A stretch of DNA of 64,000 bases from Micromonospora purpureochromogenes (GTDB taxonomy: Bacteria > Actinomycetota > Actinomycetes > Mycobacteriales > Micromonosporaceae). Each line of letters starts with the position of its first letter. Within the stretch, counting starts at the first letter, position 1. The stretch spans positions 3,906,001 through 3,970,000 of the forward strand of contig NZ_LT607410.1 of NCBI RefSeq assembly GCF_900091515.1, written 5' to 3'. The notes under the pieces are model-generated. The model saw nothing but the letters and a program-made list of their open reading frames with translations, was not told the origin of the DNA and did not search any database. The position numbers and the translations under genes are program-made. Shown in pieces: positions 22,276-38,047 of this stretch.

Positions 22276-23898
22276 TCAGCGGCCGGCGTCGACCTCCCGG
22301 CGGCGTGCGCGGCGCAGCCCGCCGGCGGCCACCAGGACCGCCACCGCGAGCCCGGCCAGGGCCAGCTCCGGCCACACACCCGCCCGGGTGGCCGGGGTAC
22401 GCCCGTCGGCGAGCGCCATCTGACGCAGCACCACCGCGCGGGTGTTGAACCCGGTGGCGCCGCTTACCCGCCCGTCGGGGGCCACGAACCCGGACACCCC
22501 GACCGTGGAGGCCATCAACGCGCCCCGGCCGTGCTCGACGGCCCGCAGCCGCACCATCGCCAGCTGCTGGCGGGCCTCGGCGACGTCGAAGGTGGCGTTG
22601 TTGGTCTGCACCACCAGCAGCTGCGCCCCACCGTCGACGGTGTCGCGCACCAGGCCGTCGTAGGCGACCTCGAAGCAGATCACGTCGCCGAGCACCGCCG
22701 GCCCGGACCGGACCACGCCGGGCCGCTCACCGGGCACGAAGTCGTTGCGGACGAGGTCGACCTGCTTGCTGACCATCCGGGCGAGCGTGCGCAGCGGCAC
22801 GTACTCGGCGAACGGGACGGGGTGCCGTTTGGTGTACAGCTGCGACAGGTCCGCCCCGGTGCCCGGGCGCCACAGGATCCCCGCGTTGCGCACCTGCCCC
22901 CGGTCGGGGCCGAGCAGCACCGCGCCGACCAGGATCGGCGCGCCGATCGCGTCGGCGGCCTGGGAGATCCGCTCCCCGGCGACGGCGTTGCGCAGCGGGT
23001 CGATGTCGGAGGAGTTCTCCGGCCACACCACCAGGTCGGGGCGCGGCCGCGTGCCGGCGGCGACCCCGGCGGCCAGTTCCAGGGTGGCGTCGACGTGGTT
23101 GTTGAGCACCGCCTGCCGTTGCGCGTTGAAGTCCAACCCGAGGCGGGGCACGTTGCCCTGCACGACCGCGACGGTGACGGTCCGGCCGGTGCCGGCCGCG
23201 CCGGTGGGCACCAGCAGCGCCCCGCCGGTGAGCGCGAGGGCCGACGCCACCAGCAGCGCCACCGGCGCCCAGCCGCGCCGGTCACCGCCCGGCCAGCGCC
23301 GCCACCCGGCGGCGAGCAGCAGCCCACCGGTCAGCGCCACGGCGAACGTCACCAGCGGCGCGCCACCGAGCCAGGCCAGCCGCAGCAGCGGCGACGTGTC
23401 CTGGCTGAACGCCAGCCGCCCCCACGGGAACCCGCCGAACGGGGTGCGGTCGCGCAGCGCCTCCTGCGCCACCCAGAGCAGCCCGGTCACCACCGGCCAC
23501 GCCCAGCGGCGCCGGTCCACCAGCGGCGACACCCACGCGGTGGCGACGCCGAGCAGCGCCAGGTAGCCGGCCTGCAGCAGCGACAGCAGCACCCACGGCA
23601 GGTAGCCGGTGTGCAGGTTGGTCCACTCCAGCATCGGCGCGAACAGCGCCACCCCGGTCAGGAAGCCCAGGCCGGCGCCGGCACGCAGCCGCCGCCGGTG
23701 CGCCGCCGCGCCGAGCAGCGCCACCCCCACCGGGGCCAGCGGCCACACCCCGTACGGCGGGAACGCCAGCAGCATCGCCAGGCCGGCGAGCACGGCGGCG
23801 GGCACGGCCAGCCGCAGCGGCAGCGCGCGCGGGGCGTCCGCGCGGCCGACCACCTCGGCGGCCCGGGTCTCATCCCGGTCGAGCGTCGTCACCGGCAC
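22276..23898 (-). CDS. lnt: Apolipoprotein N-acyltransferase
   Basis: 540 aa, GTG at 23898. The N-terminal half has about seven membrane helices (LLAFPPYGVWPLAPVGVALL, FGGFPWGRLAFSQDTSPLLR). The C-terminal carbon-nitrogen hydrolase domain sits outside the membrane with the Glu-Lys-Cys triad: Glu in VVWPENSS, Lys in YTKRHPVPFAEYVPLR, Cys in GDVICFEVAYD. It adds the third acyl chain to lipoprotein N-termini. Standard length. Organised with ppm1 as a two-gene operon. Confidence 0.94.
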   Translation of the reverse strand: MPVTTLDRDETRAAEVVGRADAPRALPLRLAVPAAVLAGLAMLLAFPPYGVWPLAPVGVALLGAAAHRRRLRAGAGLGFLTGVALFAPMLEWTNLHTGYLPWVLLSLLQAGYLALLGVATAWVSPLVDRRRWAWPVVTGLLWVAQEALRDRTPFGGFPWGRLAFSQDTSPLLRLAWLGGAPLVTFAVALTGGLLLAAGWRRWPGGDRRGWAPVALLVASALALTGGALLVPTGAAGTGRTVTVAVVQGNVPRLGLDFNAQRQAVLNNHVDATLELAAGVAAGTRPRPDLVVWPENSSDIDPLRNAVAGERISQAADAIGAPILVGAVLLGPDRGQVRNAGILWRPGTGADLSQLYTKRHPVPFAEYVPLRTLARMVSKQVDLVRNDFVPGERPGVVRSGPAVLGDVICFEVAYDGLVRDTVDGGAQLLVVQTNNATFDVAEARQQLAMVRLRAVEHGRGALMASTVGVSGFVAPDGRVSGATGFNTRAVVLRQMALADGRTPATRAGVWPELALAGLAVAVLVAAGGLRRARRREVDAGR

Positions 23899-25102: not shown

Positions 25103-26440
25103 TCAATCCGTGCCGAGATGCCGGCGCAGCAACGCCCGCGCCGCCTGCGGATGGTCGTCGGCGAGCAGCCCGCCGGCGGCCAGCACGTAGTCCACATCGA
25201 CCACCGCGCGCGCCTCCCGGGGCAGCGGCCACCCGCCGGCGTGGTCGGCCAGCACCGCGGCGAGAACCCCGGCGGCGTGGTCGGCGGGCGCATGCCGCAG
25301 CACACCACCGGAACCCACCATCAGCCGCACGTCCCGCAGGTCCCGGCCGGCGCGTTCCCCGGTGGCCGCGCCCCGGGCGTGCCGGCGCAGCGCCACCGTC
25401 GCGGCCAGCGCCGCGATCCGCCGGTCGACGGCCCGCTCCGCACCGGATTCGGCCAGGAACCCCGGGTCGGCGGCCCGCACCGTCGCCGCCCGCTCCAGAT
25501 CGTCCTGCTCCCCCACCACGAGCAGGCGTTCCTCGGCGGCGGCGCGGACCACCCCCGGGGCGCTCCACCGCATCCCCAGGTCCCCCTCGACGGTGCGGGC
25601 CCGCCACAGCGTCCCGGCGACCTCCCGGCCCGGCCCGTCGGCCCGCTCGTCCGGGGTGAGCACCGAGTACACGTCGGTGGTGGCCCCACCGACGTCCACC
25701 ACCGCCAGGTCCCCGCCCAGGGTGTCGGCGAGCACCTCCACGCCGGTCAGCACCGCGTCCGGGGTGGCCGCGCGTACCAGCCGCGCGAACCGGGTCCCCC
25801 GCGACAGCCGCTTGCCGCCGATGACGTGCCGCAGGAACACCTGCCGGATCGCCGCCCGCGCCGACGCCGGGGCCAGCACCCCGATGCGCGGCAGCACGTT
25901 GTCCGCCGCCGTCACCGGCACCCCCGCCCCGGCCAGCAGCGCGGACAGCTCGTCGCGGACCGCGACGTTGCCGGCCAGCACCACCGGCACCCGCCAGCGG
26001 GCCTTCGCCAACCGGGTCGCGTTGTGCGTCAACGTGTCGGCGTCCCCACCGTCGGTGCCACCGACCAGCAGCACCACGTCCGGGCGGGCCGCCCGCAACG
26101 CCGCCAACTCCGCCGCGCCGAGCCGGCCCGCGGCCACGTGCACCACGTTCGCGCCCGCCGACAACCCCACCCGGCGGCCCGCCTGCGCGGTGACCAGCGG
26201 CTCGTAGCCCACCACCGCCAGGCGCAGCCCACCACCGGCCGACGAGCACACGTACCACGGCACGTCCCGCACGCCCAGGCCGGCGGTGGCCGCGCCGACC
26301 GCGGCGTCCAGGCCGTGCAGCACGTCCGTGCCGACCGTGGTCGGCGCCGACGCCGCCGCGACCAGCGCGGCGCCGTCGAGGTCCACCACCGCGACCTTCG
26401 TGTACGTGGACCCGACGTCCGCGCAGACGGCGAGGGTCAC
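25103..26440 (-). CDS. MutL/GlmL-family ATPase, probable lysine aminomutase reactivase
   Basis: 445 aa, GTG at 26440 overlapping the kal stop (GTGA). ASKHA-type ATPase fold: the phosphate-1 loop is VCADVGSTYTKVAVVDLDG, and DLAVVDVGGATTDVYSVL is the second. The family (TIGR01319, glmL/MutL) accompanies B12 mutases such as glutamate mutase and 5,6-lysine aminomutase, and is thought to expel damaged cobalamin at the cost of ATP. LMVGSGGVLRHAP and DVDYVLAAGGLLADDHPQAA are conserved C-terminal segments. As the last gene of the kam operon its role as KamDE repair factor follows from context. Confidence 0.87.
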   Translation of the reverse strand: MTLAVCADVGSTYTKVAVVDLDGAALVAAASAPTTVGTDVLHGLDAAVGAATAGLGVRDVPWYVCSSAGGGLRLAVVGYEPLVTAQAGRRVGLSAGANVVHVAAGRLGAAELAALRAARPDVVLLVGGTDGGDADTLTHNATRLAKARWRVPVVLAGNVAVRDELSALLAGAGVPVTAADNVLPRIGVLAPASARAAIRQVFLRHVIGGKRLSRGTRFARLVRAATPDAVLTGVEVLADTLGGDLAVVDVGGATTDVYSVLTPDERADGPGREVAGTLWRARTVEGDLGMRWSAPGVVRAAAEERLLVVGEQDDLERAATVRAADPGFLAESGAERAVDRRIAALAATVALRRHARGAATGERAGRDLRDVRLMVGSGGVLRHAPADHAAGVLAAVLADHAGGWPLPREARAVVDVDYVLAAGGLLADDHPQAARALLRRHLGTD

Positions 26441-26829
26441 GCCGGCGGCGGGACGACCACGGTGCCGGTCGCGGTGACCGCCACGATCGGCGTGTCCAGC
26501 ACCTCCGCCGCCGACTCCGACCGGTCCGGACGACCCCGGCACACCACCCGCGCCTCGAAGTCGATCGTGCGGCTGCGGGTGCCCACCCGGGTCACCGTCG
26601 CGGTCACCTCCAACACGTCCCCCGCCCGCATGGCGCCGCGGAACTGCACATCCGAGTACGACGCGAACAACCCCTCGTCGCCGTCGGTGCGGATGCACAC
26701 CTCCGTCGCCACGTCCCCGAACAACCCCAGCGCGTACGCCCCGTCGACCAGGTTCCCCGCGTAGTGGGCGTGCGAGTACGGCACATACCGCCGGTGGGTG
26801 ACGGTCAGCCCGACCCGGGAATCACTCAT
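26437..26829 (-). CDS. kal: 3-aminobutyryl-CoA ammonia-lyase (hotdog fold)
   Basis: 130 aa, ATG at 26829 overlapping the kamE stop by 4 nt. Single hotdog domain; HAHYAGNLVDGAYALGLFGD followed by VATEVCIRTDGDEGLFASYS matches the Kal family of lysine fermenters closely. It removes ammonia from (S)-3-aminobutyryl-CoA to give crotonyl-CoA. Length equals the family norm. It is placed between kamE and the reactivase gene, so the pathway's last deamination is co-expressed with the mutase. Confidence 0.88.
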   Translation of the reverse strand: MSDSRVGLTVTHRRYVPYSHAHYAGNLVDGAYALGLFGDVATEVCIRTDGDEGLFASYSDVQFRGAMRAGDVLEVTATVTRVGTRSRTIDFEARVVCRGRPDRSESAAEVLDTPIVAVTATGTVVVPPPA

Positions 26830-27587
26830 GCCCCTGCCTTCTTGTTCGTGATCAGCGCGTGCACCAGGTAGCTGGCCACCTCACCCGGGGTGGTGCCCCG
26901 GGTGAAGATCCGGTCCACGCCCAACTCGCCGGTCATCGTCTCGTCGAACCGCGGCCCGCCCACGATCAGCAGCGGCCGCTTCCCCGCCGGCATCGCCTCC
27001 CGGAACGCCGCCGACATCTCCCGCGTGTTGTGCAGGTGCGCGTCGCGCTGCGTCACCACCTGCGACACCAGCACCGCGTCGGCCTTCTCCACCCGGGCCG
27101 CCTCCACCAGCTCCGGCACGCTGACCTGCGCGCCGAGGTTGGTGACCTTCAGCTCCCGGTAGTACTCCAGGCCCTTCTCCCCCGCGATGCCCTTGACGTT
27201 GAGGATCGCGTCGATGCCCACGGTGTGCGCGTCCGTGCCGATGCACGCCCCCACCACCGACAGCTTGCGCCGCAACCGCTGCTTCACCACCGCGTTGACC
27301 TCCTTGGCGCTCAGCAGCGGGAAGTCCCGCTCCACCACCTGCACCGCGGAAAGGTCCACCAGATGGTTCACCCGCCCGTACACCACGAAGAAGGTGAACC
27401 CGTCGCTCATCGGCTTGGCGTGCACCAGCATCGCCGGGTCGATGCCCATCTTGTTGGCCAGCTGGATCGCCGCGCCCTCGGCCCGCTTGTCGTGCGGCAC
27501 CGGCAAGGTGAACGACACCTGCACCATGCCGTCACCGGTGGTGTCCCCGTACGGCCGGACGATCTTCTTCTCCGCCGGGGCCGTCAC
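26826..27587 (-). CDS. kamE: Lysine 5,6-aminomutase beta subunit
   Basis: 253 aa, ATG at 27587 overlapping the kamD stop (ATGA). An N-terminal dimerisation region precedes the B12-binding Rossmann domain. DAHTVGIDAILNVKG contains the D-x-H-x-x-G cobalt-ligand motif, and the Lys eleven residues after that His matches the His133/Lys144 spacing of the characterised Clostridium enzyme, where Lys144 forms the PLP aldimine. With KamD it converts beta-lysine to 3,5-diaminohexanoate using adenosylcobalamin and PLP. Very confident. Confidence 0.95.
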   Translation of the reverse strand: MTAPAEKKIVRPYGDTTGDGMVQVSFTLPVPHDKRAEGAAIQLANKMGIDPAMLVHAKPMSDGFTFFVVYGRVNHLVDLSAVQVVERDFPLLSAKEVNAVVKQRLRRKLSVVGACIGTDAHTVGIDAILNVKGIAGEKGLEYYRELKVTNLGAQVSVPELVEAARVEKADAVLVSQVVTQRDAHLHNTREMSAAFREAMPAGKRPLLIVGGPRFDETMTGELGVDRIFTRGTTPGEVASYLVHALITNKKAGA

Positions 27588-29146
27588 GGGCGCTCCCCTT
27601 CCAGGATCTCGGTGGCCGGGTTGTAGTAGTCGGCGTCGTGGGCGGCCACCCCGGCCAGGCCCTTGCCCCGGTCCGCGGGCCGCTTCATGATCCCGAACGT
27701 GCCCTCGGCGATCGCCGTCAACAGCGACTGGTCACCGATGCGCTCCAGCAGATCCAGCGCCTCACCCAGCACCCGGTTGGCGCGCTGCTGGATGAACCCG
27801 CCCGGCGCCGGCACGAAGTCCTCGTGCAGCCCACCGGCCGCGCCCAGCACGTAGCGCACGTTCTGCAGGGCGATGTCCCGGTCCGACAGCCACGGCGTCA
27901 CCACCGCCTCGGTCATCATCCCCACCAGCAGGATGCCCTGCCCGGTCATGGCACCCACCAGGTTGAAGAACCCGTCGAGCAGATTCCCGCGGAACACGTC
28001 CCCGGTCATGTGCTTCGTCGGCGGCATCCACTTCAACGGCGCGTCCGGGAACAACTCCCGCGCCAGCAGCGCGTGCGCCAACTCCAGGCGGAACGACTCC
28101 GGCAGATCCGGGTTGATCTCGAACGCGTGCCCCAGCCCCAACTGCCAGTCGGCCAACCCCGCCTCGTGCGCGAAGAACTCGTTGAGCAGCTGCGACACCG
28201 TCACCGTGTGCGCCTCGTCCACCGCGTCGGCAGTGGTCAGGTAGTTGTCCTCACCGGTGTTGATGATGATCCCCGCCCGGGCGTGCACCTGCCGGGAGAA
28301 CCGCTGGTCCACGAACGTGCGGATCGGGTTGATGTCACGGAACAGGATCCCGTACATCGAGTCGTTGAGCATCATGTCCAGCCGCTCCAGGCCGGCCAGG
28401 GCCGCCATCTCCGGCATGCACAGACCCGACGCGTAGTTCGTCAGCCGCACGTACCGGCCCAGCTCCTTCGACGTCTCGTCCAACGCCGCCCGCATCAACC
28501 GGAAGTTCTCCTGCGTGGCGTACGTGCCGGCGAAACCCTCCCGGGTCGCCCCCTCCGGCACGTAGTCCAACAGCGACTGCCCCGTCGACCGGATCACCGC
28601 GATGACGTCCGCGCCGGCCCGCGCCGCGGCCTGCGCCTGCGGGATGTCCTCGTAGATGTCACCGGTCGCCACGATCAGGTAGATCCACGGCCGCTGCGCC
28701 GGATCCCCGTACCGCTTCACCAGCCGGTCCCGCTCCGCGCGCCGCCGGTCGATCGACCGGATCCCCGCCCCGACCGCCTTGCGGGCCGCCTTCCGGGCGG
28801 CGGTGGCCGCCTTTCCGGCCGGCTGTGTGAAGCGCACCGACCCGGCCGCCGCCTTCTGCGCCAGCAACGTCACGTCGCTGATCTGCTCCCGGGCCAGCGC
28901 GTCGAACACCGGCACCGCCACCCCGTGCCCCAACCCGACGTCGGCCACCACCGCGTCGACCAGCCGGTTCACCCACGGAATGCCGTCCGGGTCCGCGCCG
29001 GTCACCCCGGCCAGCCGCAACACCGCCCGCTCCACCGACACCGTCGTGTGGCTACGCGCCAGATCCACCACCGGCTGCCCGGCCCGGCGCGCCAACTCCC
29101 GCGCCCGCGCCACCAGCACCGGATCCAGGTCGAGCTTGCCCGTCAC
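27584..29146 (-). CDS. kamD: Lysine 5,6-aminomutase alpha subunit
   Basis: 520 aa, GTG at 29146. A TIM-barrel subunit that carries most PLP and substrate contacts: PWIYLIVATGDIYEDIPQAQ, AGADVIAVIRSTGQSLLDYV, EGATREGFAGTYATQENFRL and MYGILFRDINPIRTFVDQRF are all highly family-specific. It forms an alpha2-beta2 complex with KamE. An inserted basic Ala/Lys-rich stretch (AGKAATAARKAARKAVGAG) near residue 120 appears longer than in clostridial proteins. Translation is coupled to kamE by a 4-nt overlap. Confidence 0.95.
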   Translation of the reverse strand: MTGKLDLDPVLVARARELARRAGQPVVDLARSHTTVSVERAVLRLAGVTGADPDGIPWVNRLVDAVVADVGLGHGVAVPVFDALAREQISDVTLLAQKAAAGSVRFTQPAGKAATAARKAARKAVGAGIRSIDRRRAERDRLVKRYGDPAQRPWIYLIVATGDIYEDIPQAQAAARAGADVIAVIRSTGQSLLDYVPEGATREGFAGTYATQENFRLMRAALDETSKELGRYVRLTNYASGLCMPEMAALAGLERLDMMLNDSMYGILFRDINPIRTFVDQRFSRQVHARAGIIINTGEDNYLTTADAVDEAHTVTVSQLLNEFFAHEAGLADWQLGLGHAFEINPDLPESFRLELAHALLARELFPDAPLKWMPPTKHMTGDVFRGNLLDGFFNLVGAMTGQGILLVGMMTEAVVTPWLSDRDIALQNVRYVLGAAGGLHEDFVPAPGGFIQQRANRVLGEALDLLERIGDQSLLTAIAEGTFGIMKRPADRGKGLAGVAAHDADYYNPATEILEGERP

Positions 29147-29213
29147 GCCGTCACCCCGGCCCCACTCGCCGCCGGCGCGACCCGCGCCCGTGCTGCCTCG
29201 ATGCTTCGCTCGC

Positions 29214-30785
29214 TCACGCAGACCCTTCCTCATAGATGACCTCACCGCGCAGCACCGTGCGCCGGCACACCGGCAACGGCGTCGGATCCTGCGGACCCCG
29301 CAGCTCCGGGTCCTCGGCCTGCAACACCGGCAGACCCCGCTCCACCCCCGCCGGCGTCGACCACACCGCGAACGTCGCCGGCGCCCCCAACGCCAGCACA
29401 CCCTCGTTGTCCAGGTGCACCGCCCGCCAACCGCCCCGGGTGTGCGCCGCGAACGCCGCCCGCGCACTCATCCGCTGCACCGGGTTGTGGTGCGCCGCCG
29501 CCGCCCGCACCGAACCCCACGGGTCCAGCGGCGTCACCGGCGAATCCGACCCGAACGCCAACGCCACCCCGACCGCGTGCATCGCCCCCATCGGGTTCGA
29601 CTCCAACGACCGGTCCAAACCCAACCGCGACTCGTACATCCGACCCGCGCCACCCCACAACCGGTCGAACGCCGGCTGCATGCTCGCCACGATCCCGTAC
29701 TCCACGAACCCGGCGATCAGCCGCTTGTTCATGATCTCCGCGTGCTCCACCCGGTGCCGCGCCGCCCGCACCCGGTCCGTGCCCAGCTTCTCCGCCGCCG
29801 CCGCGAACCCCTGCAACACCGTCGAGATCGCCGCGTCCCCGATCGCGTGGAACCCGCCCTGCATCCCGTGCGCCGCACAGTCCAGCAGGTGGTCACGCAC
29901 CTCGTCCGCGGAGACGTACCCGTGCCCGCACGAACCCGCGTCACCGTCCAGGTACGCCGACGACACGTGCGCCGTCCGCGAGCCCAACGCCCCGTCGGCG
30001 AACAGGTCACCACCGGCCCCGACCGCGCCCAACTCCCGGGCCCGCGCCGCACCCAGCAGCTCACCCCAGTAGCCGTACACCTCCGGCACGCCGTCGCCCG
30101 ACACCGCCAGCAGACCCGTGAAGTCCTCCTCGTCGGAGATCTCCGGACCACCGCACTCATGCACCGCCGCGATGCCCAGCGACGCCGCGTGCGCCAACGC
30201 CGCCCGCTGCGCCGCCACCCGCTGCGGACGCGTCACCGACGCGAACGCCGCCGCCCGCACCACGTGGTGCGCGTCCCGACGCAACCACCCCGACGCGTCG
30301 TACCCGGCGGCCTGCGCCGCCTGCGGACACGCCGCCAACAGCGCCGCCGAGACCAACGCCGAATGGATCGACGCCTGCGACAGGTACACCCGCCGACCCC
30401 CGGCCGCCCGGTCCAGCGCCGCCGCGTCCGGCAACTGCGGCACCGGCCAGTTCGACTCGTCCCACCCGTGCCCCAGCACCACCGCGTCCGCCGGCAACCC
30501 CGCCGCGAACGCCGCCACCGCCGCCAGCAGCCCCGCCGCCGACCGCACCCCGGACAGGTCCAACCCCGACAACGCCAACCCCGTGTCCGTGGCGTGCACG
30601 TGCGCGTCCACGAACGCCGGCGTCACCAGCGCACCGTCCAGCTCCACCACCCGGTCGGCGACCGGCGCGTCCCGGTCCGCGCCCAACCAAACGATCCGGC
30701 CGTCGGTCACCAGCAGGGCCGTCGCGCGCGGATCGGCCGGACAGTGCAGCACGCCGCCGCGGTACAGAGTCGAGGGGTTCGTCAT
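29214..30785 (-). CDS. YtcJ-like amidohydrolase inside the lysine operon
   Basis: 523 aa, ATG at 30785, five bases after the kdd stop. Amidohydrolase_3/YtcJ family: the metal motif VDAHVHATDTG, then FHAIGDAAISTVLQ, RHRVEHAEIMNKRL and the late Asp in ALAFGSDSPVTPLDPWGSV. These enzymes hydrolyse C-N bonds of amides, formamides or cyclic imines. No such activity is part of the textbook lysine fermentation route. Position between kdd and kamD implies action on a pathway amine or a cyclised side product, or delivery of lysine from an amide; this is inference. Confidence 0.85.
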   Translation of the reverse strand: MTNPSTLYRGGVLHCPADPRATALLVTDGRIVWLGADRDAPVADRVVELDGALVTPAFVDAHVHATDTGLALSGLDLSGVRSAAGLLAAVAAFAAGLPADAVVLGHGWDESNWPVPQLPDAAALDRAAGGRRVYLSQASIHSALVSAALLAACPQAAQAAGYDASGWLRRDAHHVVRAAAFASVTRPQRVAAQRAALAHAASLGIAAVHECGGPEISDEEDFTGLLAVSGDGVPEVYGYWGELLGAARARELGAVGAGGDLFADGALGSRTAHVSSAYLDGDAGSCGHGYVSADEVRDHLLDCAAHGMQGGFHAIGDAAISTVLQGFAAAAEKLGTDRVRAARHRVEHAEIMNKRLIAGFVEYGIVASMQPAFDRLWGGAGRMYESRLGLDRSLESNPMGAMHAVGVALAFGSDSPVTPLDPWGSVRAAAAHHNPVQRMSARAAFAAHTRGGWRAVHLDNEGVLALGAPATFAVWSTPAGVERGLPVLQAEDPELRGPQDPTPLPVCRRTVLRGEVIYEEGSA

Positions 30786-30790
30786 GACAC

Positions 30791-31852
30791 TCAGTCTGCC
30801 GCCAGCCGGGACTCGAACAGAGCGCGGACCCCCGGCTCCGACCGCAGCAGACCCAGCGCCAGCTCCGCGTGACCCGGCACGTACCCGTTGCCCACCAGCA
30901 TCGTCACATCAGCCGCCAGGCCCTCCGCGCCCAACGCCGCCGCCGCGAAGCTCGTCGCCATCGAAAAGAAGATCACCGTGCCGCCGTCCGCCGTGGCCAG
31001 CACCGCCCCGTGCTCGCAACCCGGCACGTCCACGCAGACCACCGTCACGTCCGCCGGCACCCCCAGCGCCGACGTCACCACCGTCGACAACGCCACCGGA
31101 TCCCGGGCGTCGGCCAACGCGACCACCGAGGCCAGCCCGGCGTCGGTCAGCGCGTCGCGCTCAGCCGCCACCGGCACCACCCCGACCGTACGACCCGCGC
31201 CCGCCCGCCGCGCCGCCGCCAGCGACAGCGACCCGCTCTTACCGGCCCCACCGATCACCGCGACGCGCACCGGCGTCGGGTCGTTCTCGCGCTGCCTGCG
31301 CGCCACGTGCTCCGCGACGACCCGCCCGGTCAGCGCCGGCGCCCCGCACACGTCGAGCACCGCCAGGGACAACTCCGGGTGCAGGTCCGCCGGCAGCACC
31401 GCCGCGATCGACCGGGCGAACAGGATCGCGTACCCGTCGCACGGCACCTGCTCGCTGCGCCCGTCCCAGCGGGCCAGCCCGTCGAGGACGGTCAGCGGGG
31501 TCAGGGTCAGCGACACCAGCGTCGCCACCCGGTCACCGGCCGTCAGCTCCAGCGGCGAACGCCGGCCGACCTCCTCCACGGTGCCGATCAGCATGCCGCC
31601 CGACCCGGTCACCGGGTTCTGCATCTTGCCCCGGGTGGCGATGATCTCCAGCACCTCGGCGCGGACCTTCTCCCCGTCGCCGCCGTGCTTCTCCGACAAC
31701 TGCCGGAAGCTCGCCGCGTCCAGGTTCAGCCGCTCGACCCGGATCCGCACCTCGTTCGGCGCGATCCGCGGGTCGGCGTCCAGCCGCCACGCCGCCTGCG
31801 GCAGCACCCCCGCCGGTTCCACAACGCGGTGCAGACCCACCGGTGACGTCAC
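30791..31852 (-). CDS. kdd: L-erythro-3,5-diaminohexanoate dehydrogenase
   Basis: 353 aa, GTG at 31852 preceded by GGGAGGTC. It oxidatively deaminates 3,5-diaminohexanoate to 5-amino-3-oxohexanoate. Family-typical segments: GLHRVVEPAGVLPQAAWRLD, EVRIRVERLNLDAASFRQL, GGDGEKV, ATRGKMQNPVTGSGGMLIGT and the NAD(P) Rossmann loop VAVIGGAGKSGSLSLAAARR. Length is close to the family's ~345 aa. First gene of the minus-strand kam operon, divergent from kamA with 145 bp between. Confidence 0.92.
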   Translation of the reverse strand: MTSPVGLHRVVEPAGVLPQAAWRLDADPRIAPNEVRIRVERLNLDAASFRQLSEKHGGDGEKVRAEVLEIIATRGKMQNPVTGSGGMLIGTVEEVGRRSPLELTAGDRVATLVSLTLTPLTVLDGLARWDGRSEQVPCDGYAILFARSIAAVLPADLHPELSLAVLDVCGAPALTGRVVAEHVARRQRENDPTPVRVAVIGGAGKSGSLSLAAARRAGAGRTVGVVPVAAERDALTDAGLASVVALADARDPVALSTVVTSALGVPADVTVVCVDVPGCEHGAVLATADGGTVIFFSMATSFAAAALGAEGLAADVTMLVGNGYVPGHAELALGLLRSEPGVRALFESRLAAD

Positions 31853-31922
31853 GCCGACCTCCCCTGTCAGCCGCGTGAAGCCCCGGCCTGGGCTCGCATC
31901 GCGGGAAAACTTCCGGCAGACT

Positions 31923-31941
31923 AATATCTTCACCGGATATT
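31923..31941. promoter_or_regulatory. Inverted repeat in the kdd/kamA divergent promoter
   Basis: AATATC-N7-GATATT (31923-31928 and 31936-31941) is an AT-rich perfect palindrome in the 145-bp divergent region. A GGAAAACTTCC palindrome lies just to the left (31903-31914). Probably a binding site for the regulator of the lysine cluster; which one is unknown. Confidence 0.55.
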
Positions 31942-31997
31942 TTCCAGTAGCCTACGGGCCGCTGATCATCTGCACCACTACGCACCGAGGAGGGGCC

Positions 31998-33404
31998 GTG
32001 ACCCAGACCCAACCGGTTGAGACCATCCCTCAACCCCGTCACGCCCCGGTCGCGACGCCGACCGCCGGGCAGCCGTACGAATACCGCCGCAGCCCCCTGG
32101 TCGAACCCGACTGGACCCGCTTCCCCGGCTGGCGCCACGTCACCCGCGACCAGTGGGAGAACGCCCAGTGGCAGCGCGTCAACTGCGTCAAGAACATCAA
32201 GCAGCTGCGCACGGTCCTCGGCGACGGAGTCGACGAGACCTTCTACGACGACCTCGCCGCCGACCAGAGCGCCCTGGCCACCATGTCCATGCTGGTGACG
32301 CCGCAGATGCTCAACACCATGGTCCCGTTCGCCCCGATGACCACCGAGGCGTTCCACGCCGACCCCGTGCGGCGCTACATGATCCCCGTCGCCTCCGACC
32401 GGCGCACCGACTGGCCGTCACACCCGTACGCCAGCCGCGACTCGCTGCACGAGCACGACATGTGGGTCGCCGAGGGCCTCACCCACCGCTACCCCACCAA
32501 GGTCCTCGCCGAGCTGCTCTCCACCTGCCCGCAGTACTGCGGGCACTGCACCCGGATGGACCTGGTCGGCAACTCCACCCCCGCCGTCGACAAGCTCAAG
32601 CTCACCCTCAAGCCCGTCGACCGCTACGACGCCCACATCGCCTACCTCAAGGCCCACCCCGGCGTCCGCGACGTCGTGGTCTCCGGCGGTGACGTGGCCA
32701 ACGTGCCGTGGCGCAACCTCGAGTCGTACCTGATGCGGCTGCTGGAACTGGAGACCGTCCGCGACATCCGGCTCGCCACCAAGGCCCTGATGGGCCTGCC
32801 GCAGCACTGGCTCCAGCACGACGTCGTCGAGGGCCTGGAGCGGGTCGCCCGCACCGCCGCCCGACGCGGCGTCAACCTGGCCATCCACACCCACGTCAAC
32901 CACGCCCAGTCGATCACCCCGCTGGTCGCCAAGGCCGCCCAGACCGCCCTCGACGTCGGCGTCCGCGACGTACGCAACCAGGGCGTGCTCATGCGCGGCG
33001 TCAACGCCACCGCCCCCGACCTGCTCGACCTCTGCTTCGCCCTGCAGGGCGAGGCGGGCATCCTGCCGTACTACTTCTACATGTGCGACATGATCCCCAA
33101 CGCCGAGCACTGGCGGGTCCCCGTCTGGCACGCCCAGCAGCTCCAGCACGACATCATGGGCTACCTGCCCGGCTACGCCACCCCGCGGATCGTCTGCGAC
33201 GTCCCCTTCGTCGGCAAGCGCTGGGTGCACATGCTCACCGAGTACGACCGCGAACGCGGCATCTCGTACTGGACCAAGAACTACCGCACCTCCATCGAGT
33301 CCGCCGACCTGGAGGCGCTCAACAAGCGCTACGCCTACTACGACCCGATCGACACGCTGCCCGAGGCCGGCCAGCAGTGGTGGGCCGCCCACCGCGACGA
33401 CTGA
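31998..33404 (+). CDS. kamA: Lysine 2,3-aminomutase (radical SAM, PLP)
   Basis: 468 aa, GTG at 31998 with GAGGAGGGG before it. The radical-SAM cluster motif is CPQYCGHCTRMDLVG (C-x3-C-x2-C) near residue 180. The N-terminal region (GWRHVTRDQWENAQWQRVNC) and DVVVSGGDVANVPWRNLESY are characteristic of the 2,3-aminomutase family. DVPFVGKRWVHML supplies a candidate PLP-binding Lys. It converts lysine to beta-lysine. Neighbouring kamDE, kdd and kal make lysine, rather than glutamate or arginine, the likely substrate. Confidence 0.93.
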   Translation: MTQTQPVETIPQPRHAPVATPTAGQPYEYRRSPLVEPDWTRFPGWRHVTRDQWENAQWQRVNCVKNIKQLRTVLGDGVDETFYDDLAADQSALATMSMLVTPQMLNTMVPFAPMTTEAFHADPVRRYMIPVASDRRTDWPSHPYASRDSLHEHDMWVAEGLTHRYPTKVLAELLSTCPQYCGHCTRMDLVGNSTPAVDKLKLTLKPVDRYDAHIAYLKAHPGVRDVVVSGGDVANVPWRNLESYLMRLLELETVRDIRLATKALMGLPQHWLQHDVVEGLERVARTAARRGVNLAIHTHVNHAQSITPLVAKAAQTALDVGVRDVRNQGVLMRGVNATAPDLLDLCFALQGEAGILPYYFYMCDMIPNAEHWRVPVWHAQQLQHDIMGYLPGYATPRIVCDVPFVGKRWVHMLTEYDRERGISYWTKNYRTSIESADLEALNKRYAYYDPIDTLPEAGQQWWAAHRDD

Positions 33405-36128: not shown

Positions 36129-36620
36129 TCAGCCGGCCTCGCCGTTGGTGCGGGGCCGCACCCGGGTCCGCGGGTCGAGGTCGATCTTCGGCGGCCGCCC
36201 CTCGTACGGGGTGGAGAGCACCACGGTCGTGCGGGTGGTGACGTTGGCCGCCGTGCGGATCTCCTGAAGCACCCGCTCCAGGTCGGCCGGGCCGGCCACC
36301 CGCACCAGCAGCAGGTAGAAGTCCTCCCCCGCCACCGAGTAGCAGGAGTCGATCTCGGGCAGGTGAGCCAGCCGCTCCGGCGCGTCGTCCGGCTGCGACG
36401 GGTCGAACGGGCGGATCGCCACGAACGCGGTCAGCGGCAGGTCCAGCGCCTCGAACGAGACCCGGGCGGCGTAGCCGTTGATCACCCCGCGCTGCTCCAG
36501 CCGGCGGACCCGCTGATGCACCGCGGAGACCGACAGCCCCACCTTCTCCGCCAGATCCGTGTACGACAGCCGACCGTCAACGGTCAGTGCCGCGACGATG
36601 GCGCGGTCGATCTCCTCCAC
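36129..36620 (-). CDS. Lrp/AsnC-family transcriptional regulator
   Basis: 163 aa, GTG at 36620 (a TTG three codons earlier is possible). HTH at residues 4-50 (IDRAIVAALTVDGRLSYTDL, then AEKVGLSVSAVHQRVRRLEQ), followed by the RAM/AsnC effector domain (CYSVAGEDFYLLLVRVAG). Such proteins sense amino acids and control their metabolism. It lies 4 kb from the lysine cluster, whose divergent promoter carries an uncharacterised palindrome; a regulatory link is possible but unproven. Confidence 0.9.
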   Translation of the reverse strand: MEEIDRAIVAALTVDGRLSYTDLAEKVGLSVSAVHQRVRRLEQRGVINGYAARVSFEALDLPLTAFVAIRPFDPSQPDDAPERLAHLPEIDSCYSVAGEDFYLLLVRVAGPADLERVLQEIRTAANVTTRTTVVLSTPYEGRPPKIDLDPRTRVRPRTNGEAG

Positions 36621-36904: not shown

Positions 36905-38047
36905 CTAGCCCTTTGCGAGGGCCCGGGAGATCACCAGCCGCTGGATCTGGTTGGTGCCCTCGACGATCTGGAGCACCTTGGCCTCCCGCATGTACCGCTC
37001 CACCGGGTGGTCGGCCACGTATCCGGCGCCGCCGAGCACCTGCACCGCGTCGGTGGTCACCCGCATCGCCACGTCGGTGGCGAAGAGCTTCGCCTTCGCC
37101 GCCTCGATCGAGTACGGCCGGCCGGCGTCGCGCAGCCGGGCGGCGGAGAGCGTCAGCGCTCGGGCGGCGGAGATCTGCGTGGCCAGGTCGGCGAGGTTGA
37201 AGCCGAGCCCCTGGAAGTCGATGATCGCCTGGCCGAACTGCCGCCGTTGTTTCGCGTAGCCGACCGCGTAGTCGAGGGCGGCCTGGGCCAGCCCGACCGC
37301 GCAGGCGGCGATGCCGAGCCGGCCGGAGTCCAGGGCCGACATGGCGATGGTGAAGCCCATGCCCTCGCCGCCGATCAGCCGGTCGGCGGGCACCCGGGCG
37401 TCGTCGAAGGCGATCTGCGCGACCGGGGAGGCGTGCAGGCCCATGGTCCGTTCGGCGGCCTGCGGGTGCAGGCCCGGGGTGTTCTTCTCGGCCAACAGGC
37501 AGGAGATGCCCTTCGGGCCGGGGCCGCCGGTGCGGCAGAAGATGTTGTAGAAGTCCGCGACCCGGGCGTGCGTGATCCACGCCTTGGTGCCGGAGACGAC
37601 GTACGAGTCACCGTCCCGGACGGCCTTCGTGGTCATCGCCGCCGCGTCCGAGCCACCCTGCGGCTCGGAGAGGCAGTAGGCCCCCAGCAGCTCCCCGCCG
37701 ATCATGTCGGGCAGCAGCTTGCGCTGGGCGTCGGTGCCGAACTGGGCCACCGGGTAGCAGGACAGGGTGTGCACGCTGACCGCCTCGGCCACGGCGAGCC
37801 AGCGGCTGGCCAGGATCTCCAGCACCTGGAGGTAGACCTCGTACGGCTGGGCGGCGCCGCCGTACTCCTCGGGGTAGGGCAGGCCGAGCAGGCCGGCCCG
37901 GCCCAGGGTGCGCAGCACCTCCCGGGGGAACTCGGCGCGCTCCTCGAACCCGGCGGCCCGGGGGGCCAGCTCGCGGTCGGCGAGTTCGGTGGCGAGGTCG
38001 AGCAGGTCGTGGGCCTCGTCGGTGGGGAGGATCCGGTCGACAGTCAT
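36905..38047 (-). CDS. Acyl-CoA dehydrogenase
   Basis: 380 aa, ATG at 38047 overlapping the M24 peptidase stop by 4 nt. FAD-dependent: CLSEPQGGSDAAAMTTKAVR is the first signature, QVLGGAGYVADHPVERYMRE the second, and QIVEGTNQIQRLVISRALAK the C-terminal part. The catalytic base Glu is in IVEGTNQ. It oxidises acyl-CoA at alpha-beta. Co-transcription with a peptidase is unusual; it might handle a branched-chain or short acyl-CoA from amino-acid breakdown. Confidence 0.9.
   Translation of the reverse strand: MTVDRILPTDEAHDLLDLATELADRELAPRAAGFEERAEFPREVLRTLGRAGLLGLPYPEEYGGAAQPYEVYLQVLEILASRWLAVAEAVSVHTLSCYPVAQFGTDAQRKLLPDMIGGELLGAYCLSEPQGGSDAAAMTTKAVRDGDSYVVSGTKAWITHARVADFYNIFCRTGGPGPKGISCLLAEKNTPGLHPQAAERTMGLHASPVAQIAFDDARVPADRLIGGEGMGFTIAMSALDSGRLGIAACAVGLAQAALDYAVGYAKQRRQFGQAIIDFQGLGFNLADLATQISAARALTLSAARLRDAGRPYSIEAAKAKLFATDVAMRVTTDAVQVLGGAGYVADHPVERYMREAKVLQIVEGTNQIQRLVISRALAKG

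Follow-up and report, generated by a model that had tools for sequence, protein, structure and literature searches.

We propose that Micromonospora purpureochromogenes carries a complete coenzyme B12-dependent pathway for lysine catabolism whose genes are divided between two sites on the chromosome, a seven-gene operon and a distant kce gene, and we would give this reading a probability of about 85%. The operon lies in the stretch of DNA analysed here (the window, 64,000 nucleotides, positions 3,906,001-3,970,000 of the single contig of 6,674,134 bases that constitutes the host genome), which an earlier sequence-only reading had described as a nearly complete lysine fermentation pathway lacking Kce. 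The interpretation draws on gene content, gene family, co-occurrence and linkage in relatives, from which substrates, flux and regulation are inferred.

The coenzyme B12 lysine pathway is usually described as an anaerobic fermentation, and the genus and family of the host are known as aerobes. By gene content, the predicted pathway is complete to crotonyl-CoA, with the same KamA, KamD/E, Kdd, Kce and Kal families and the same inferred step order as the pathway of Clostridium sticklandii, Fusobacterium and Cloacamonas. KamA would convert lysine to beta-lysine; KamDE would carry it to 3,5-diaminohexanoate, its activity being maintained by a MutL/GlmL-like reactivase; Kdd would yield 5-amino-3-oxohexanoate and ammonia; the distant Kce would cleave this product with acetyl-CoA to acetoacetate and 3-aminobutyryl-CoA; and Kal would release crotonyl-CoA and ammonia. 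Unlike in anaerobic lysine fermentation, kce is here unlinked, an amidohydrolase gene lies within the operon and an Lrp/AsnC-family regulator gene is a neighbour.

The lysine operon

Seven genes occupy the interval 25103-33404, kamA being divergent from six minus-strand genes. Gene coordinates are window positions here and below, and start codons were picked by judgement.

31998-33404, plus strand: kamA, lysine 2,3-aminomutase-type radical SAM enzyme, 468 amino acids; GTG start after GAGGAGGGG; PDB match 2A5H
30791-31852, minus strand: kdd, L-erythro-3,5-diaminohexanoate dehydrogenase, 353 amino acids; GTG start; NF052381 267.6 bits (cut-off 200)
29214-30785, minus strand: Amidohydro_3 (YtcJ-like) metal-dependent amidohydrolase, 523 amino acids; PF07969 246 bits; PDB 3ICJ
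27584-29146, minus strand: kamD, lysine 5,6-aminomutase alpha subunit; NF052384 697 bits (cut-off 600)
26826-27587, minus strand: kamE, lysine 5,6-aminomutase second subunit; NF052385 350 bits (cut-off 280); PF16554, PF02310
26437-26829, minus strand: kal; NF052388 194 bits (cut-off 160); PDB 4MTU, beta-alanyl-CoA ammonia lyase
25103-26440, minus strand: mutL/glmL-type reactivase of B12 mutase, 445 amino acids; PF13941 460 bits; TIGR01319 258 bits (cut-off 204)

KamD, KamE, Kdd and Kal pass their NCBIfam equivalog cut-offs, and the reading frames overlap by 4 nucleotides at kamD/kamE, kamE/kal and kal/mutL. The best PDB match of Kdd is 7DL3 (E 1.6e-60), while KamD matches 8T0V (E 1.3e-164) and also 9Q1A and 1XRS. 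For KamA, lysine 2,3-aminomutase 2A5H is the sole solved-structure match at E <= 0.001, and 8/8 aligned KamA proteins conserve CxxxCxxC as well as two presumably functional aspartates that correspond to D293 and D330 in that structure. Coordinates, family matches and overlaps thereby bear out the sequence-only reading on the presence of kamA, kamD, kamE, kdd, kal and a MutL-like reactivase, and the gene families support its assignment of the B12 lysine pathway; its inventory was nevertheless incomplete, the Amidohydro_3 gene between kdd and kamD having been overlooked.

Two side observations concern these genes. One family locus (L053, genome G023) has kal but yielded no mutL match within the DNA fetched; its reactivase may have diverged or be absent. 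A DNA search of a plasmid collection for a plasmid copy of kamD gave no match.

The distant Kce ortholog

The genome-wide search for BKACE proteins (beta-keto acid cleavage enzymes; DUF849, PF05853), which the sequence-only reading had proposed, returned one match, window included, at contig positions 1,173,864-1,174,673 and 2.8 Mb from the operon. The earlier statement that no kce lies near the operon therefore holds, and the organism as such does not lack the gene. A missing, a relocated or a replaced step had been envisaged; of these relocation is favoured, since the distant Kce ortholog co-occurs with kdd.

The protein is nearest to true Kce among solved structures (2Y7D, 209 bits; next structure 145 bits), its best NCBIfam model is NF052387 Lys_ferment_KCE, and it carries the TGAE motif, the Glu of which is presumably functional and which the 3FA5 and 3NO5 proteins do not have. 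It might alternatively be a beta-keto acid cleavage enzyme of another kind, for example a 3-oxoadipate:acetyl-CoA acetyltransferase, with 5-amino-3-oxohexanoate leaving the route otherwise: that model is its second NCBIfam match (203 bits), the Lys_ferment_KCE cut-off is missed, and the gene has a GCV_T-domain gene on one side and one for asparaginase II on the other. However, the affinity to true Kce with the TGAE motif kept, the tendency, described below, to be present and lost along with kdd and kamD, and the direct adjoining of kce and kamA in two of 20 fetched family loci (L045, L051) make this alternative very improbable.

Linkage in relatives also supports the proposed split pathway. 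In a BKACE tree of 39 proteins, rooted by midpoint only, the two linked copies join ten split copies from the family and three from the class in one 100/100 clade; the host protein groups with other actinomycete Kce-like proteins. The operon was further compared in named genomes, where a scan with the Kdd alignment gave at least 580 stretches encoding a relative; the best 80, analysed here, include Micromonospora, Salinispora, Kribbella, Nocardioides, Actinoplanes, Actinomadura and Phycicoccus. No kce was found in the fetched DNA around kdd in any of these 80 loci, a statement about the loci only, and the lack of kce in the operon is therefore the usual state in this group. Some fetched loci are short or masked (9421 N in L158), so that gene absences there are uncertain.

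Co-occurrence and joint loss of kdd, kamD and kce

The family survey covered 200 genomes, of which 190 contain kdd and 195 a BKACE; 20 of the 190 kdd loci were fetched for the comparison of gene order. With the host's own Kce as query, a Kce ortholog was found in 190/190 kdd-positive genomes (E <= 8.8e-112) and in 2/10 kdd-negative ones (G094, G113). Among the remaining kdd-negative genomes, G030, G033 and G164 gave remote matches only (5.6e-6, 8.2e-44 and 3.1e-48), and five gave none at all (G093, G105, G121, G059 and G063, the last two being only 82% and 77% complete). Fisher's test on these counts returns p 8e-13, a value that is too small because genomes of one family are related and not independent. 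In G094, kamD, kamE, kal and mutL stand on a contig that begins inside the amidohydrolase gene with kamD at its edge, and the absence of kdd is therefore attributable to an assembly gap; with G094 counted as kdd-positive the comparison becomes 191/191 vs 1/9 (p 1.6e-13). kamD was likewise not found in the nine other kdd-negative genomes.

The losses are nested. Within genus g34, the kdd-negative G093, G105 and G121 stand beside the kdd-positive G034, G060, G079 and G114, and in genus g29 the kdd-negative G164 stands beside many kdd-positive members. These four genomes have lost kdd, kamD and the Kce ortholog altogether, and their loci no longer contain kamE, kal or mutL.

Across the phylum (396 genomes), the kdd model has matches in 23 genomes. 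Of these, 21 belong to genera other than that of the host, and 18 of the 21 score above 150 bits; a BKACE of some kind is present in 17 of the 18. The weak kdd matches in G424, G451 and G487 come without BKACE, and kdd was found in none of 14 listed genomes that belong to a different family within the order.

Besides the overstated significance, several observations weigh against the split pathway. KamA scores 157.5 and 171.6 bits where its NCBIfam cut-offs are 525.4 and 199.2, respectively. The host Kce reaches 274 bits where the Lys_ferment_KCE cut-off is 382, and the kamA-adjacent copies in L045 (293 bits) and L051 (255 bits) are likewise under it; among 7 proteins scanned, L126 alone passes (406 bits). 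The linked kce copies of the distant phylum genomes G233, G545 and G364 lie across the midpoint-rooted tree from the clade of the host. G113, a draft in 440 contigs, holds a Kce ortholog with neither kdd nor kamD found, and G258, a draft that is 90% complete, has kdd and no BKACE. An operator common to kce and the operon was sought and rejected: none of five genome sites with two or fewer mismatches to AATATC N7 GATATT, a motif of the kamA/kdd promoter region whose exact copy is among the five, lies at kce.

The amidohydrolase and a possible kamA module

The amidohydrolase sits between kdd and kamD in 18/20 fetched family loci and shares the fetched locus with kdd in 67/80 named loci, in two of the 67 several kb from kdd. 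It has 7939 homologs, the best 120 of which are nearly all from Micromonospora or Salinispora where named, with the closest records from Micromonospora at 98% identity; as to function, these best 120 of 7939 matches give no lead beyond one record name, 'N-substituted formamide deformylase'.

Such constant placement, in loci of which none among the 80 holds kce, could mean that the amidohydrolase replaces Kce or performs a dedicated step, such as the opening of a 5-amino-3-oxohexanoate lactam, with BKACE serving another role. In the same direction, no amidohydrolase was found in five loci with kce beside kamA or kdd (L045, L051, L118, L119 and L125, which ends at kdd). The patterns of loss nevertheless make a substitution for Kce unlikely. 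In G093, G105, G121 and G164, where the pathway and the Kce ortholog are lost, full-length kamA and the amidohydrolase gene remain side by side; in G030 the amidohydrolase gene is kept beside a kamA truncated by the contig end, and the locus no longer contains kdd, kamD, kamE, kal or mutL. Conversely, G013 and G014 hold the pathway with the amidohydrolase ortholog away from the cluster, and five Nocardioides loci (L214, L216, L217, L219 and L222) have kamA, kdd, kamD, kamE and kal without it, although L230 has it. Moreover, Kal acts on a CoA ester, which is supplied by Kce and not by a hydrolase. We accordingly regard this alternative as very improbable.

The persistence of the kamA/amidohydrolase pair where kdd, kamDE, kal, mutL and kce have disappeared is seen in several relatives (L277-L281). 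Because both genes persist in genomes that lost the pathway, and because the ortholog is unlinked in G013 and G014, the amidohydrolase is probably not dependent on the pathway and KamA is probably used outside lysine degradation as well. Two Amycolatopsis strains are reported to possess lysine 2,3-aminomutase and no lysine catabolic pathway (PMC5859366), which fits another use of kamA.

These observations could be extended to the view that the whole operon is non-catabolic, its beta-lysine or 3,5-diaminohexanoate going into an osmolyte or natural product, as kamA is the only pathway gene retained in the four loci and in G030, and its product may serve elsewhere; the report on the Amycolatopsis pair points the same way. 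We hold this to be the least probable of the alternatives, since Kdd, Kal and Kce break down the carbon skeleton and kdd is spread more widely in the family than expected of a product cluster. AblB, the N-acetyl-beta-lysine enzyme, was also not found above cut-off in 12/12 genomes searched, with weak matches in 6.

Alongside the split catabolic pathway, we tentatively suggest a second, non-catabolic module in which KamA, the amidohydrolase and the Lrp/AsnC regulator make use of beta-lysine or the KamA product, with a derivative of beta-lysine as the possible substrate of the amidohydrolase. Several lineages have kept this module and lost the degradative genes along with the distant kce, so that the two sets can be separated.

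Predicted fate of acetoacetate and known pathway variants

The acetoacetate CoA-transferase that the sequence-only reading had suggested looking for was not encountered: PF01144 has no match in the genome, and the same search was positive in 6/14 control genomes. An acetoacetyl-CoA synthetase is encoded instead (810 bits, cut-off 521). The two results together suggest that acetoacetate is probably activated by this ATP-dependent synthetase in place of the CoA-transferase of anaerobes, a difference from clostridial butyrate-forming fermentation with its PF01144 butyryl-CoA:acetoacetate CoA-transferase. Crotonyl-CoA would enter beta-oxidation, and with presumed beta-oxidation and thiolase steps the likely route would turn lysine into three acetyl-CoA and two ammonia, oxygen not being a reactant.

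Differences in a single step between organisms have a precedent in the Kat variant of Ca. Cloacamonas acidaminovorans, in which kal is reported to be replaced by an aminotransferase (PMC3149608); in the present organism kal is there, and no replaced step would be needed up to crotonyl-CoA. Ammonia-oxidising archaea are described as having kal and kat without the key pathway enzymes (PMC8397731). In a limited search of open-access PMC (titles and abstract openings of the papers listed), the pathway was not met for Micromonospora or other aerobic actinomycetes.

Regulation and neighbouring genes

Two further features of the window bear on regulation.

31853-31997: divergent kamA/kdd promoter region, with inverted repeats 31904-31916/31933-31945 and AATATC N7 GATATT at 31923-31941
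36129-36620, minus strand: Lrp/AsnC-family regulator, candidate regulator of the operon; PF13404, PF01037

AATATC N7 GATATT occurs only once in exact form in the genome. Elsewhere in Micromonospora, several loci have AATATCCGGTGAAGAAATT or similar at this motif; the right half varies and the exact palindrome is not conserved. A separate promoter for kce, putatively of the leaderless type, is suggested by TAGGAT just 5' of the start in 9/23 upstream sequences. Many actinomycetes have the Lrp/AsnC regulator close to kamA: of 124 loci examined, 86 contain a homolog (E <= 1e-20), 4/5 kdd-negative loci among them, and in 68 of these 86 loci the homolog is no more than 5 kb from kamA.

The regulator gene is adjoined by an acyl-CoA dehydrogenase gene (about 36917-38023, minus strand), and downstream of the operon lies an apolipoprotein N-acyltransferase gene (22276-23898, minus strand; LNT_N, CN_hydrolase), a homolog of which adjoins the amidohydrolase gene in L284 and L285, two loci away from the kam cluster of their genomes.

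Meaning for the family

The sequence-only reading had held that a Kce gene elsewhere in the genome and controlled with this operon would make an ordinary split pathway. The gene was found elsewhere, with a seemingly separate promoter, and may or may not be under joint control; by that earlier standard the predicted pathway is essentially an ordinary split one, present in many aerobic-type actinomycetes. What remains noteworthy is this wide occurrence, together with the possible kamA-amidohydrolase module, which is mildly novel.

The gap in the operon could be closed by patterns of gene loss instead of proximity, the nested losses amounting to a natural test of pathway membership. All steps to crotonyl-CoA appear to be encoded in 190 of the 200 genomes sampled from a family regarded as aerobic and, if active, the pathway would bring the six carbons of lysine to acetyl-CoA without oxygen or loss of CO2, in genera that are exploited for acetate-derived natural products.

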